From Salinirubrum litoreum (lineage in GTDB: Archaea; Halobacteriota; Halobacteria; Halobacteriales; Haloferacaceae): a stretch of DNA of 64,000 nucleotides. The stretch lies in contig NZ_JAJCVJ010000002.1 in NCBI RefSeq assembly GCF_020567425.1, forward strand, positions 723,068 to 787,067, in the 5' to 3' direction. Positions 7,489 through 57,265 of this stretch are shown piece by piece (the stretch's first letter is position 1; every line of letters begins with the position of its first letter). Position numbers and translations under genes: made by a program. The notes below the pieces were generated by a model, which had not been told where the DNA came from, did not search any database, and saw nothing but the letters and a program-made list of their open reading frames with translations.

Positions 7489-7598
7489 GGCGTGGAACTT
7501 GGCGGGGCGGCTACTAATACTCGGTGACGACTGGGAGGTGGACGTGTGTTCCGGGCCAAGTGGGTGCGTTGGAGATGTGAACCTGGACGGGCCGGTCG

Positions 7599-7740
7599 CG
7601 GACGACCAGGGGTGAAAGCCCCCGGACCACGGTGTTGCGGTCAAGTGAGTCACGGACGACGAGGGGTGAAAGCCCCTGGACCACGGTGTTGCGGTCAAGT
7701 GAGTCGCGGACGACGAGGAGTGAAAGCCCCCGGCGTCTCG
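7599..7740 (+). repeat. 54-bp direct tandem repeat, about 2.6 copies
   Basis: The string cggacgac begins at 7599, 7653 and 7707, giving an exact 54-bp period. Each unit carries a small hairpin (aggggtgaaagcccc) followed by a ggaccacggtgttgcggtca segment; the third unit breaks off after its hairpin. The first two units are almost identical. The tract directly precedes the head of dispersed element copy A, whose GTGAAAGCCCCC motif is the third unit's hairpin. Confidence 0.85.
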
Positions 7741-8447
7741 ACCCTCCGGGACTCGCTGCGCCCTTCCCTCACGAGGGCGCGTCGCGTTGCTCCGCGCCCT
7801 CGTTCAGTCCAGTGCTTATGTCGTCCGGGAGGGGCCGAGACGCCGGCCCCTTTCAGTCCCACCCGGAATTAAGCGTCCCATCGCGTCGTCACTGGTTCTC
7901 ACCCGGCGTGGCGGCTGTCGATTCGGAACCCGGTTGTCGTAGTAGCTTCCCCACCCTCCCCGACTGCCGACGAGGCGACCTGCGAGCAGGTCCTCGCTGT
8001 CGCTCGGACACTGCTCTGTGTCGGTCGTCGACAGATCGCGTCCTCGTGGGGTTCCGGGCTGTCGGAGTTGTCGGGTGACGAGTGGAGTCGTGCGCTTTCG
8101 TCCGAAATTCGGCGCGCGCGAGGAACGTGCGCGAGGGAGGGACTGCGGGCGGTGCCGAGAGCAGTCCCGAGGCTGGGGAGGACGAGGTGCGGTGCTGTGC
8201 TGTCTGCGGTGCGGTTTCTCGCGCTGGCACGAGTAGCGGTGCTGAGGCGGGTTGCAGTCGCGGTGCGGTCGCGGTCGAATAGTCCGGTTGTCCCGGGTCG
8301 GGTAGCGGTGCTGTTGTGGTCGCGGTCGCGGTCTGCGGTGCTGGTGCAGTAGCAGTCGCGGTACACAGCGGAGTATCGGTCACACGTCTATCCTGCCGAG
8401 TCCATCTCACGCACCACTAAGTTCCCGCACGGCGTGCTCCCGACTGT
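7720..8447 (+). repeat. Dispersed intergenic element, copy A
   Basis: This gap of about 0.9 kb before pgk holds no convincing gene. It contains a head (gtgaaagccccc motif at 7720-7731 and ccctttcagtcccaccc at 7848-7864) whose two halves are flanked by the perfect 11-bp arms ccggcgtctcg (7730-7740) and cgagacgccgg (7836-7846). A middle block follows (about 7870-8050, including accctccccgactgc and gctgtcgctcggacactgct). Then come a two-hairpin module (8111-8168), the string gaggctggggaggacgaggt and a tail rich in gcggtgctg. Related blocks recur near 31.7, 38.9, 45.6 and 56.8 kb. Open frames inside it are Arg/Thr-rich, follow the repeat and look spurious. Confidence 0.7.
8111..8192 (+). ncRNA. 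Candidate structured RNA module, element copy A
   Basis: Hairpin 1 pairs 8113-8120 with 8126-8133 (8 bp, one G-U, loop aggaa). Hairpin 2 pairs GGGACTGC (8139-8146) with GCAGTCCC (8161-8168) around the 14-nt loop gggcggtgccgaga. The flanks gcgaggga before and gaggctggggaggacgaggt after are shared with the other copies, while the hairpin-2 stem sequence is different there and still pairs. The strand is inferred from copy B, which has a TATA box upstream. No TATA box was seen here, so expression is uncertain. Confidence 0.4.
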
Positions 8448-28688: not shown

Positions 28689-29756
28689 ATGCCGTTTCAA
28701 CCGGGGTCGTTCCTCCGCGACCTCCGTGACATCTCGGGGTGGAAGCTGAGGGCCTTCTTCGCGGTCTACTACACCTACGTCGGACTGTGGCTCACGCTCA
28801 GTACACGCGTCCGACTCGGAACACACGTCTTCGACGAGGACTGGGACCTGCTGGTCGTCCTCGACACCTGCCGCGTCGACGCACTCGAGGCCGTCGCCGA
28901 CGAGTACGACTTCCTCGACGGTGTCGGGTCGATCACCTCGCTCGGCAGTACCTCGGTGGAGTGGCTCTCCCAGACGTTCGACCGCGAGCACGCCGACCAG
29001 ATCGCCCGCACCGCCTACGTCACCGGAAAGCTCGACAGCGAGAGCATCTTCCGGGACGGCGACTACCCGCCGGCGTATCGTCAACCGCCGGCGACGTGGC
29101 CCGCGTGGGACGTGGTCTCCGCCGACGACTTCGGCCTGCTGGACGAGGTCTGGCACGACGGCACCGACGAGCGACTACGCGTCGTCCCGCCGCGACCGCT
29201 GACCGAGCGTGCGATCCGCGCCGGGCGGGAGACCGACCACGACCGACTCGTCGTCCACTACATGCAGCCGCACACGCCGTACATCGCCGAGTTGCTGTCG
29301 ACGGGTGTCGGGAGCGAGACGACCGTCCCGGCGGTCGACGCCGACCCCTTCTCGGCGCTCCGGGCGGGGTCGGTCGACCGCGCGGAGGTGTGGGATCGCT
29401 ACCTCGACAACCTCCGCCTCGTCCTCGACGACGTGGCGCTCCTCCTGGAGAACGTCGACGCGGAGCGCGTGGTGATCACGGCGGACCACGGCGAGGGCTT
29501 CGGCGAGTACGGCGTCTACGAACACCCCATCGGCTGTCCGTTCCCGACCGTCAAGCGCGTCCCGTGGGCCGTCACCACCGCCACCGACACCGGGAGCTAC
29601 CCGACCCCCTCCGGCGTTGCCGATTCCGACGTGACCGATTCCGACGTGACCGACCCGGAGGCACCCGGCGAGTCGCCGACCGAGCACATCGCACAGGACG
29701 GTGGTGTCCCCGACGGGGACGGGACCGAGAACTGTTACGGAGTCAGTAACGAGTGA
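28689..29756 (+). CDS. Alkaline-phosphatase-superfamily (sulfatase-like) protein, copy 1
   Basis: A 355-residue protein of the alkaline phosphatase/sulfatase superfamily. WDLLVVLDTCRVDAL supplies the first metal Asp and a possible nucleophile region, and ITADHGEGFGEYGVYEHP supplies the distal Asp-His and His metal ligands. There is no signal peptide; a single hydrophobic patch (FFAVYYTYVGLWLTL, about residues 22-36) may associate with the membrane. The next gene is a close paralog. Its C-terminus differs from that of copy 2: instead of DRLADLGYV it has an acidic tail with the duplicated unit DSDVT. Substrate is unknown; similar haloarchaeal genes occur in surface-glycan loci. Confidence 0.8.
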   Translation: MPFQPGSFLRDLRDISGWKLRAFFAVYYTYVGLWLTLSTRVRLGTHVFDEDWDLLVVLDTCRVDALEAVADEYDFLDGVGSITSLGSTSVEWLSQTFDREHADQIARTAYVTGKLDSESIFRDGDYPPAYRQPPATWPAWDVVSADDFGLLDEVWHDGTDERLRVVPPRPLTERAIRAGRETDHDRLVVHYMQPHTPYIAELLSTGVGSETTVPAVDADPFSALRAGSVDRAEVWDRYLDNLRLVLDDVALLLENVDAERVVITADHGEGFGEYGVYEHPIGCPFPTVKRVPWAVTTATDTGSYPTPSGVADSDVTDSDVTDPEAPGESPTEHIAQDGGVPDGDGTENCYGVSNE

Positions 29757-29847: not shown

Positions 29848-30873
29848 ATGCCGTTCCAACCGGACGCCTTCTTGGACGATCTCCGCGACTTCTCCGGGTG
29901 GAAGTCCCGCGCGTTCTTCGCGGTCTACTACACCTACGTCGGACTGTGGCTCACGCTCAGCTCTCGCGTCCGACTCGGGACACACGTCTTCGACGAGGAC
30001 TGGGACCTGCTGGTCGTCCTCGACACCTGCCGCGTCGACGCACTCCGGGCAGTCGCCGACGAGTACGACTTCCTCGGCGACGTGGCGACGGTCTGGTCGC
30101 TCGGGAGCACCTCCGACGAGTGGATGGTCCAGACGTTCGACCGCGACCACGCCGACCTGATCGCCCGCACCGCCTACGTCACCGCGAACCCGTACACCGA
30201 CGCCGTGTTCCACCGAGAGCACTACCCGCCGACCTACCGCCAACCGCCGGCGACGTGGCCCGCGTGGGACGTGGTCTCCGCCGGCGACTTCGGCCTGCTG
30301 GACGAGGTCTGGCGCTACGGCACCGACGACTCCGTGAAGGTGACGACACCGCGCGTGACGACCGACCGGGCCATCCGTGCCGGCCGAAGCGGCGACTACG
30401 ATCGTCTCGTCGCTCACTACATGCAACCGCACATTCCGTACCTCGGTCGGACGAGCGAGGCGGCCGCGACACCGGACGACCGCCTCCGGACCGACGGCGC
30501 GCTCCTCACGGCTCTCGACACACAGCCCTTCGACGCGCTCCGACAGGGCACCGCCGACCGCGCGGCGGTGTGGGACCGCTACCTCGACAACCTCCGCCTC
30601 GTCCTCGACAGCGTCGAACTCCTCCTGGAGAACGTCGACGCGGAGCGCGTGGTGATCACGGCGGACCACGGCGAGGGCTTCGGCGAGTACGGCGTCTACG
30701 AACACCCCATCGGCTGTCCCGCGCCGACGGTCAAACGCGTCCCGTGGGTCGTCACCACCGCCACCGACACCGGCGACCACGACCCGGCCCGGCACCGCGA
30801 CCCGGCGGCCGACACGGCGACAGGGGTGGAAGACGACGTCGCGGACCGACTGGCGGACCTCGGCTACGTCTGA
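29848..30873 (+). CDS. Alkaline-phosphatase-superfamily (sulfatase-like) protein, copy 2
   Basis: A 341-residue paralog of the preceding gene, starting MPFQPDAFLDDLRDFSGWK. It has the same metal-site blocks (VVLDTCRVDALRAV and ITADHGEGFGEYG). The C-terminus DVADRLADLGYV is that usual for sulfatase-like proteins, so this copy looks intact. Long stretches of DNA are identical to copy 1, notably around 30001-30040 and 30640-30720. ATG 29848 lies 91 bp after the stop of copy 1. Confidence 0.82.
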   Translation: MPFQPDAFLDDLRDFSGWKSRAFFAVYYTYVGLWLTLSSRVRLGTHVFDEDWDLLVVLDTCRVDALRAVADEYDFLGDVATVWSLGSTSDEWMVQTFDRDHADLIARTAYVTANPYTDAVFHREHYPPTYRQPPATWPAWDVVSAGDFGLLDEVWRYGTDDSVKVTTPRVTTDRAIRAGRSGDYDRLVAHYMQPHIPYLGRTSEAAATPDDRLRTDGALLTALDTQPFDALRQGTADRAAVWDRYLDNLRLVLDSVELLLENVDAERVVITADHGEGFGEYGVYEHPIGCPAPTVKRVPWVVTTATDTGDHDPARHRDPAADTATGVEDDVADRLADLGYV

Positions 30874-31656: not shown

Positions 31657-32033
31657 GCTGACGTAGACTCGGCTGGGGAAGTCGGGAGGAACCGAGTCGA
31701 ATCTGTTGTAGACACCTCGGTCGAGTCGGTTGCAGGCGACAAGGGGTGAAAGCCCCCGGCCCCTTTCAGTCCCACCCGGATTTGCGTCCCATCGCGCAGT
31801 TACTGGTCGTCACCCGCCGTGTCGTCTGTCGGTTGGGAACCCAGTTTCGCGCAGTCGTCCCCGAACCTCCCCGACTGCTGGCGACCGAACTGCGAGCAGG
31901 TCACTCGCTGTCGCTCGGACACTGCTCGGTGTCGGTCGCCACCAGATCGCGTCCTCCCAGGTTCCGGTGGTCGTCGTCTCGTCGGGGTGACGACTCTGGC
32001 GTGCGCTGGTGGGGGTTGTGAACGACCGAGATT

Positions 32034-32069: not shown

Positions 32070-32155
32070 AACCCGGCGCGCGAGAAACGCGCGAGGGAGG
32101 CGAGGGTGGGCGGTGCGGAGAACCCTCGCCGAGGCTGGGGAGGACGAGGTGCGGG
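32070..32155 (+). ncRNA. Candidate structured RNA module, element copy B
   Basis: Hairpin 1 is CGCGCG (32077-32082), loop agaaa, CGCGCG (32088-32093). Hairpin 2 is GGCGAGGGT (32099-32107) paired with ACCCTCGCC (32122-32130), 9 perfect bp around the 14-nt loop gggcggtgcggaga. The loop differs from that of copy A by one base while the stem is entirely different. The flanks gcgagggagg and gaggctggggaggacgaggt are conserved. A TATA box lies about 35 bp upstream, which supports transcription in this direction. Confidence 0.5.
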
Positions 32156-38826: not shown

Positions 38827-39480
38827 GCCGGCTGGGGCGATTGGGACGGGTTTCTGGTGGAACGTCGGTGGGTGGAGTCGGGAGTGGATTCGTGTGCTCG
38901 TGGCTGGTGTCTTCGAGGCTACTGTGGTCCGTGGCGACAACTCTGCCGCCGGTGTTGCTTGTACGTGGGACCACGACAGCACCACGACTGCGACCGCACC
39001 AGCACCGCGCCGACTGCCTGCGAGACCCTTGGTCTCGCTCTGTTCGGTTCGTCACCGGCGCGAAGCGCCGGTTTCCAGCGAGACCGAAGGTCTCGCCCGG
39101 CTCACGAAGACGCCGACCGCACCGCGACACCACAGCAGAGTTCCAACTCACGACCAATGTACCAGTCGACCGGGCTGGCGCGACCTCCGTGTCGCGCCGA
39201 CGGTCGCAGGGAGGCGCTTCGCTGATCTGACTGCTCCACCGGGTGTTGCGTGCGTCCCCGCGAACTCTCCGGGTGGGACTGAAAGGGGCCGCGCTCTCGA
39301 CTGGTCCCCGACGAGGTAAGCACCGCAAAGCAACGAGCGAGCTTGCTCGCTCGTCGACTGAGGCGCGTGGTTCGAGAGACGCCGTCGGCGTCTCTCGTCA
39401 TCACGAGAGAGCTTCGCTCTCTCGAACGACAACGAGTCGCGGACCATCGAGAGCGCGGGGGCTTTCACCGCTCGGTGTCG
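38827..39480 (-). repeat. Dispersed intergenic element, copy C (reverse orientation, hairpin-rich)
   Basis: A gap of about 0.8 kb without a credible gene. Read on the minus strand it has the head (ggtgaaagcccccgcgctct near 39458-39476 and ggcccctttcagtcccaccc near 39270-39290) with perfect 12-bp arms, tcgagagcgcgg (39447-39458) and ccgcgctctcga (39289-39300), around a variable insert. Its tail has gcggtgctggtgcggtcgca. The insert and middle hold at least six perfect short hairpins, including GCGAGACC/GGTCTCGC twice (39020-39038 and 39078-39096), CCGGCGC/GCGCCGG (39055-39071), ACGAGCGAGC/GCTCGCTCGT (39333-39354) and CGAGAGACGCC/GGCGTCTCTCG (39373-39397). The two-hairpin module flanks are not recognisable here. 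Confidence 0.65.
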
Positions 39481-45439: not shown

Positions 45440-45872
45440 GTGTGAACCGTTGTCACTGTCTGGCAAAAATCCCCGGCAGACTCCTGTCGTGCGACCGTCT
45501 GACGTGCGAGGGTGACGGGGTGGATGGTCGGGGACGCGGGAGTCGCCGGCCTGCGGAACGACTGGCTGGACTGTCCTTCGACCGTGAGAGTACGACAGAG
45601 CGCGACAGCGACCGCGACTGCGCCGCACCCCGCACCCCGCGACCGCACAACACCGCCACGGCCCTGTACCGCCCCTCGCTCTCCACGGCCTCGACCACGG
45701 CGAGAGCGTGGCGCTCGCTAGCTCTCGTCACCGGCGCTTCGCGCCGACTGCTGGGGATCACCGGTCCCGCCCTGCTCACGTAGACCTCGCACGCGTCGTC
45801 GTCGCGCGCACCGGGAGGTTCCGTGAGACCGAACGGCGTCCGAGCGACGGGATCAGCCCACCCGACGCACAC
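45440..45872 (-). repeat. Degenerate fragment of the dispersed element, copy E
   Basis: A 0.43-kb gap without a convincing gene. On the minus strand about 45600-45660 reads as gcggtgttgtgcggtcgcgg-like units, the same as the tail of copies A-C. Short hairpins (GGCGC/GCGCC near 45733; GAGAGC/GCTCTC near 45702-45726) resemble those of copy C. The head and the two-hairpin module are not recognisable. Open frames through it are Arg/Ser-rich and repeat-derived. Confidence 0.4.
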
Positions 45873-56799: not shown

Positions 56800-57265
56800 T
56801 CGACAACGAGAGGTGAGAGCCCCCGTCGTGTCGTCACTGGTCGTCACCCGGCGAGTCGTATGCGTATTCGGAACCCGGCAGTCGCAGTACCCCCCACCCC
56901 TCCCCGACTGCTGACGACCGAACGTGCGAGTCGGTTCGCGCTATCGCTCGAACACGACTCGGTTCCGGTCGCCACCAGCTCGCGTCCTGTCGGATTCCGG
57001 GCCGTCGTCGAACTGGTCGGGTGACTGGTGGGGTCGTGTGCGTTCACACAGAGTCCGGCGCGCGCGAGAAACGCGCGTGAGGGAGGGTCGCGCGTTCAGG
57101 CGCGACCCGAGGCTGGGGAGGACCGAGGTACGGTGCTGTCGCGGTCTGCGGTGCTGATGCCGTCACTATTTGCGGTACGGTAGCAAATGACGTACTGGTG
57201 TCATCCCGGTCTACGGTACGGTGGGAGGTGCTGTACTGTACTCTCGCAGTCGTGGCCGAATTCGA
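56800..57265 (+). repeat. Dispersed intergenic element, copy D
   Basis: This 0.6-kb gap has no credible gene. It begins with a half head (gaggtgagagcccccg, 56809-56824) that lacks the second CCCCTTTCAG half. The middle block matches copies A and B (tcactggtcgtcacccggcg, attcggaacccggcagtcgc, cctccccgactgctgacgac, gccaccagctcgcgtcctg). The two-hairpin module (57059-57108), gaggctggggaggaccgagg and a short gcggtctgcggtgctg tail follow. Confidence 0.7.
57056..57134 (+). ncRNA. Candidate structured RNA module, element copy D
   Basis: Hairpin 1 is CGCGCG (57061-57066), loop agaaa, CGCGCG (57072-57077), extendable by a C-G and a G-U pair. Hairpin 2 is GGGTCGCGC (57085-57093) paired with GCGCGACCC (57100-57108), 9 perfect bp around gttcag. 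Its stem shares no alignable identity with those of copies A and B except the first two or three G, yet pairs fully. The strand is inferred by analogy with copy B. Confidence 0.4.

Follow-up and report, generated by a model that had tools for sequence, protein, structure and literature searches.

A candidate structured RNA at the core of an apparently undescribed dispersed repeat in haloarchaea

Three two-hairpin modules in a 64,000-nucleotide stretch of Salinirubrum litoreum DNA (the window) are members of an apparently undescribed high-copy family of folded, dispersed repeats. Judged from its sequence, and with moderate confidence, the module would be the core (~100 nt) of a structured non-coding RNA (ncRNA) borne by an old, non-autonomous, chromosomal dispersed repeat, which was probably mobile in the past. 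Conserved unpaired segments, a tandem G-A loop, strand-specific wobble pairs and TATA-like motifs favor an RNA, and dispersal together with the pattern of presence and absence favors a formerly mobile repeat. The restriction of the copies to the chromosome in the host and the lack of near-identical recent duplicates there argue against an element that is still active.

The module and its copies in the window

A preliminary description had placed three plus-strand copies of the module (A, B, and D) in the window, and a covariance model located all three there. Their hairpins 1 and 2 (H1, H2), together with two further hairpins upstream (H0, H3), are situated as follows.

8111..8193, + strand: two-hairpin core of copy A (covariance model, 85.4 bits), with H1 at 8113-8133, then the GAGGGA spacer, and H2 at 8139-8168 with a 14-nt loop at 8147-8160
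8168-8193, + strand: conserved tail of copy A, CGAGGCTGGGGAGGACGAGGTGCGGT
32075..32155, + strand: core of copy B (covariance model, 65.1 bits), with H1 in its 6-bp form at 32077-32093 and H2 at 32099-32130 with a 14-nt loop
32035-32043: TATA-like CTTATAAAT of copy B, ~35 nt upstream of the core
57057..57134, + strand: core of copy D (covariance model, 83.8 bits), with H1 at 57059-57079, H2 at 57085-57108 with a 6-nt loop, and the conserved tail
7955..8043, - strand: H0 of copy A, a covarying hairpin upstream of core A, with TCGGGGAGG next on the - strand
31866..31954, - strand: H0 of copy B (repeat family D4), homologous to the 21-copy H0 alignment and outside it
56899..56987, - strand: H0 of copy D, row L019 of the H0 alignment
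7703..7867, - strand: H3 hairpin of copy A, GGGTGGGACTGAAAGGGGC...GGGGGCTTTCAC on the - strand, inverted relative to the core
7595..7756, no strand assigned: tandem 54-bp units at the outer edge of copy A H3 (repeat family D7)
31743..31779, - strand: collapsed H3 of copy B, arms only, with the loop gone
56810..56827, - strand: fragment of the outer H3 arm of copy D (GAGGTGAGAGCCCCCGTC)
39268..39470, + strand: stand-alone H3 hairpin, GGGTGGGACTGAAAGGGGC...GGGGGCTTTCA, at which the core was not detected

The layout common to A, B, and D is H1, the GAGGGA spacer, H2 and a tail, CGAGGCTGGGGAGGAC(C)GAGGTGCGGT. The H2 arms (GGGACTGC/GCAGTCCC in A, GGCGAGGGT/ACCCTCGCC in B, and GGGTCGCGC/GCGCGACCC in D) and the 14-nt loop shared by A and B are as first reported, and the loop of D has 6 nt. 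All three copies are intergenic: A is flanked by a reverse-strand ORF and the phosphoglycerate kinase gene (pgk), B by genes for a creatininase-family protein and a SAM hydroxide adenosyltransferase, and D by an aminotransferase gene and a PadR-domain gene. The flanking motif CGAGGCTGGGGAGGAC is found three times exactly in the window and 13 times with at most three mismatches, where 2.6 are expected and none of 100 shuffles reaches 13.

A high-copy family in the host and in Halorubrum

The three copies first reported are real, but the family is far larger. The two-hairpin core has 97 confident copies in the 4.06-Mb host genome (E <= 7e-6 with R1, a covariance model of the core), and genomes with the most copies hold at least 150. 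A 314-bp version of copy A gives 47 blastn matches at ~40 places in the host genome, A itself included; the other long matches are 69-86% identical to it. Contigs C1, C2, and C4 carry 96 of the 97 copies, and a single one is situated on C3 and C5, which make up 0.69 Mb or 17% of the genome (P = 2.6e-7). The density is ~1 copy per 30 kb. Copies are randomly spaced on C2 and show slight clustering on C1, they occur on either strand, and neither regular spacing nor strand order was seen in the host genome. Genes predicted with a rough, home-made caller place the copies in mixed contexts (23 tandem, 10 divergent, 9 convergent), and a gene-context rule such as a terminator or an operon spacer was set aside. 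The nearest partner of a host copy is at the median ~86% and at most 92% identical over stretches of at least 120 bp, implying that there are no fresh duplicates and that the copies are old.

Most Halorubrum genomes contain roughly 40 to at least 150 copies. Model R1 gives 7 to 133 matches in named Halorubrum genomes, and a Halorubrum model, R2, gives 59 to at least 150 in five genomes of one genus that was taken as Halorubrum from its sequences (g14). Relatives, including some in other haloarchaeal genera, were found in 16 of 60 genomes, and in 42 of 213 in a second search with strict filters, in which only 18 candidates per genome were scored. R1 has no match in single genomes of Halobellus, Halogeometricum, Haloarcula, and Haloferax. 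The repeat has no match among phages and viral contigs and seven partial, weak ones in a plasmid collection, so that a plasmid- or virus-borne element was rejected. Plasmids of Haloarcula and Natrinema, too, contain matches to the Halorubrum H3 region; together with the stand-alone H3 at 39268-39470, these matches suggest that H3 may be a wider haloarchaeal element.

The preliminary description knew of no named RNA family with this layout, in agreement with Rfam 15: the window yields only two tRNAs, and copy A and ten related loci, searched at a permissive E-value, give nothing near a gathering threshold, so a known RNA family at or above its threshold was set aside. No description of the repeat sequence was found in the open papers searched on haloarchaeal and archaeal repeats, or by a search with a sequence string. 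In particular, it is not described in the passages on haloarchaeal repeats of PMC3119063 and PMC10544981 or in those of a REP survey (PMC12306157).

Stems that change and remain paired

The variation of H2 is striking in extent: 76 host copies have 33 distinct 6-nt arms, and in 68 of them the first seven pairs are perfect. The same arms recur in unrelated copies and genomes. Around the stems, a purine-rich core that is predicted to be unpaired is conserved (GAGGGAG and GAGGCTGGGGAGG..GAGG). The host alignment beats all 500 shuffles on three of five covariation measures and slid controls on all five. In a test in the manner of R-scape, in which substitutions were placed anew at random columns on a FastTree tree and scored by an APC-corrected G-statistic, six of the 17 structure pairs are significant in the host genome, all of them in H2, and none elsewhere. 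In Halorubrum, all 500 shuffles fall short of the observed values, whichever of the five measures is taken; against the tree-based null, a plain MAFFT alignment gives no significant pair in the structure and one outside, and an alignment anchored on conserved segments gives two in the structure and none outside. Significant covariation for one fold, as is asked of structured ncRNAs in general, is thus seen in the host (six pairs against none) and in the structural alignment of Halorubrum (two against none). Because the structural alignments were drawn up around the proposed stems, they are biased in favor of these, although the nulls have the same layout; the nulls leave out exchange between copies.

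Covariation had been put forward as evidence of selected structure on the strength of three copies, and it proves to be real under the tree-based null. An unpaired stem 2 in other copies had been named as the observation that would count against it; copies elsewhere stay paired. The pairing of H1 through a G-U change holds in part, for G-U variation is present, but two-sided change is scarce and the significant covariation of the host is confined to H2. A protein-coding repeat was rejected because stems and loops change in length by non-multiples of three: stems have 7-11 bp and loops 6 or 14 nt, H1 is variable in length, and the indels are not multiples of 3.

Strand asymmetry of the wobble pairs

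On the plus strand, H1 of the host contains 34 G-U cells and one A-C cell (p = 2e-9 over cells, which overstates the evidence because the cells represent five distinct position-types against one). Halorubrum H1 is biased likewise, with 24 G-U and four A-C. In the long host copies (the 21-copy alignment), H0 has 18 A-C against five G-U on the plus strand, which places the wobble on the minus strand, and its alifold energy is better on the minus strand. The biases of H1 and H0 are opposite (Fisher p = 1e-9), implying that H0 belongs to the minus strand. There it is followed by TCGGGGAGG, which resembles the core tail, and then by H3, so that a long host copy looks like two divergent units. Opposite biases argue against a double-stranded cruciform and for a folded single strand, either RNA or single-stranded DNA (ssDNA). 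The mismatches of H2 show no strand bias (four G-U, four A-C), and H2 alone could be a DNA palindrome.

The Halorubrum unit and upstream TATA-like motifs

In Halorubrum, the unit is ~250 nt long and consists of H1, H2, a linker and H3. Its 5' end is sharp, starting at GGTGGCGCG, and the flanks before it are mostly unrelated among copies. H1 has an outer stem of 8 bp, then a covarying one of 3 bp, a tandem G-A loop and an inner stem; the loop, GAG opposite CGA, is found in 36 of 41 Halorubrum cores. H2 and the tail are situated 3' of H1, followed by a linker, 15-26 nt long in almost every copy, and by H3 (~119 nt), which has a conserved GGG opposite GGG and covarying arms. A kink-turn was considered for the internal loop and rejected, since this loop is a symmetric tandem G-A. 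Shine-Dalgarno mimicry by GGAGG/GAGGTG was also dropped, as GAGGTG is often GAGGCG or GAGGCT. Tandem 54-60-bp units are situated at the outer H3 edge both in the host (window 7595-7756) and in Halorubrum (L138, L279), and the Halorubrum units contain TTTATAA.

TATA-like motifs were counted in the 35 Halorubrum copies that have no homologous 5' extension and whose flanks are non-homologous. In the two 20-nt bins closest to the unit, they occur in seven and six of these copies, against two motifs in the twelve bins from -300 to -60. With the usual archaeal TATA-to-start distance, the predicted transcription start of several Halorubrum copies would fall at about the first base of H1. The presence of such motifs within 40 nt upstream, even in non-homologous flanks, favors an RNA; in the host genome, only eight of 83 copies have one near the core.

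History of the repeat at orthologous sites

Downstream of pgk, the element is present in some Halorubrum species, and in others the gap between the genes is short. The element at this site is found in either orientation (L137 vs. L151, L140, L138, and L160), and in L143, L144, L147, and L153 a stretch of ~11 kb spanning pgk appears inverted relative to L137, L140, and L151, and the repeat has a copy at each breakpoint. Copies at inversion breakpoints suggest that the repeat may help to shape haloarchaeal genome order. At a second orthologous site, L143, L146, L135, and L153 contain the element and L159, L138, and L155 only remnants of it; the H2 stems differ among L143, L146, and L135, yet they pair. 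These comparisons suggest that old insertions are inherited, exchange stems, flip, and decay. Sites with the element, without it and with remnants are too diverged to define exact ends. An apparent 7-bp target duplication between L143 and L159 came from a BLAST overlap and was discarded, L159 being a deletion remnant; the repeat yielded no mobilizing enzyme, no target duplication and no clear 3' boundary. Inverted repeats near the ends (CGATCGATARCGGGAGT...) were seen only in a long Halorubrum subtype, and most copies have no inverted terminal repeats.

Interpretation and comparison with known systems

Structured dispersed repeats such as REP/BIME and ERIC are known from bacteria, where they are chromosomal and intergenic, occur in tens to hundreds of copies, and form stem-loops with compensatory change. 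The present repeat resembles them in location, in copy number and in its conserved, compensated stem-loops, and the host family consists, like REP/BIME, of high-copy intergenic palindromes on the chromosome. It differs from them in being archaeal, in sequence and architecture, and in having a three-hairpin unit with a tandem GA loop; the passages of the REP survey (PMC12306157) name no haloarchaeon. Among haloarchaeal repeats, elements described in PMC3119063 are similar to it. The palindrome-associated transposable elements (PATEs) of Haloquadratum are, according to the passages there, non-coding, a few hundred bp long, high in copy number and divergent, with terminal hairpins and with rearranged and internally deleted copies. 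The Halorubrum unit, from H1 to H3, likewise has near-terminal palindromes and is, at ~250 nt, too short to encode a transposase. PATE hairpins are related to IS605-type ends, whereas no such relation was seen for the present repeat at 13 host loci, and it has stems that covary across copies and, in some copies, TATA-like motifs just upstream. Small mobile repeats (SMRs) and MITEs of Haloquadratum are also short, transposase-free and dispersed, and near-terminal inverted repeats occur in the long Halorubrum subtype; the differences are an identity of ~86% as against >95%, the rarity of inverted terminal repeats and a structure kept by compensatory change. A further likeness is that SMRs are reported in the same source to be absent from a plasmid. 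The omega/sot RNAs associated with IS200/IS605 in haloarchaea are, according to PMC12558985, another case of structured RNA tied to repeats in archaea; the present repeat is not adjacent to tnpB, and the core model has no match at the tnpB loci tested.

The strongest rival explanation is an ssDNA element like the PATEs, which we regard as rather unlikely. The hairpins of such a non-autonomous transposable element would be read on one strand, as ssDNA, by a Y1 transposase (IS200/IS605-type) acting in trans, with RNA unneeded. Dispersed copies, the sharp 5' end, unrelated flanks, presence or absence between species and near-terminal hairpins all accord with it, and an ssDNA hairpin, too, would give a wobble bias on one strand. 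PATEs are abundant in Haloquadratum in the account of PMC3119063, one in a Halorubrum virus is transcribed according to the passages of PMC10544981, and the host has three Y1 transposase and 15 TnpB matches. However, the core model scores at best 15 bits (E 0.045) against the three Y1 and ten of the 15 TnpB loci of the host, none of which carries the core, and an IS605/TnpB end or omega RNA was rejected because no convincing match was found there. Contigs C3 and C5 are home to three of the 15 TnpB matches and hold only one of the 97 copies; near-identical copies and matches to phages or viral contigs are lacking.

Two further explanations were considered. In one, which appears improbable, the palindromes have no selected function and are kept perfect by a mutational process (template switching or fold-back repair) and by gene conversion between copies. 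The strand-symmetric mismatches of H2 and its identical arms in unrelated copies and genomes would suit such a process, and inverted H3 loops and flips of the whole element are to be expected of recombining palindromes, but it leaves unexplained the strand-specific wobble of H1 and H0, the non-Watson-Crick tandem GA loop, the conserved unpaired segments and the TATA-like motifs. In the other, similarly improbable, the repeat is a chromosomal DNA element of the host resembling REP/BIME, in which the hairpins or the G-rich core bind a chromosome-organizing protein. This would fit the chromosome restriction (P = 2.6e-7) and density in the host, the intergenic location in all gene contexts and vertical retention at orthologous sites; near-random spacing, random strand order, deletion of sites in some species and a strand-specific wobble that is unexpected of a duplex-binding site speak against it.

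The preliminary description had offered an ncRNA or a cruciform used by a mobile element. Strand asymmetry disfavors a plain duplex cruciform and the TATA-like motifs upstream of Halorubrum copies favor an ncRNA, but the choice between ncRNA and mobile element is a false one, as the evidence fits a repeat that is dispersed and, on its sequence features, could also encode an RNA. In an RNA-bearing repeat of this kind, RNA polymerase would start at about the first base of H1 in Halorubrum, where the third hairpin would extend the ~100-nt RNA to ~250 nt, and the transcript would fold into H1-H2-H3. A host protein, or one belonging to a mobilizing element that is lost or so far unrecognized, may bind the conserved unpaired segments, and the stems of H1 and H2 may act as interchangeable struts whose sequence drifts while pairing is kept, with exchange between copies helping. 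Past spread, possibly by recognition of the transcript or of the hairpins, would have placed the copies, which would by now be passed on mainly by inheritance, with recombination between them, flipping, and decay through internal deletions.

A more far-reaching proposal, which we put forward tentatively as a possibility that is somewhat unlikely, is that the repeat represents a new class of high-copy RNA genes in archaea: a folded RNA of ~250 nt that bears a promoter, present up to at least 150 times per chromosome and kept functional copy by copy. The logic would be like that of a SINE or of a multi-copy host RNA gene family, and we know of no archaeal counterpart. Should the repeat prove to encode an RNA, it would rank with the most numerous of the RNA genes in Halorubrum. 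A hypervariable yet paired stem between nearly invariant flanks constitutes a natural experiment on the requirements of a fold.

Sequences inserted in the repeat and other observations

A longer multi-hairpin sequence (GGCGAGACCGGAGGTCTCGCC..CCGGCGCGAAGCGCCGG..) is situated inside the H1 or H2 loop of several copies (L228, L248, L249, L251, L253, L257, L259, and L262; L005, L244, and L254), and palindromes related to it stand alone in the window at 39056-39096 and 45706-45746. At ~3380-3560 of L153, the H2 loop contains a MITE-like insert (TAGTACCTAGC...CTAGGCACTA), recalling the Haloquadratum PATE palindromes that are targeted by small mobile repeats. Apart from the repeat, the window contains two tandem paralogous genes, at 28689-29756 and 29848-30873, which are 85-94% identical in stretches.
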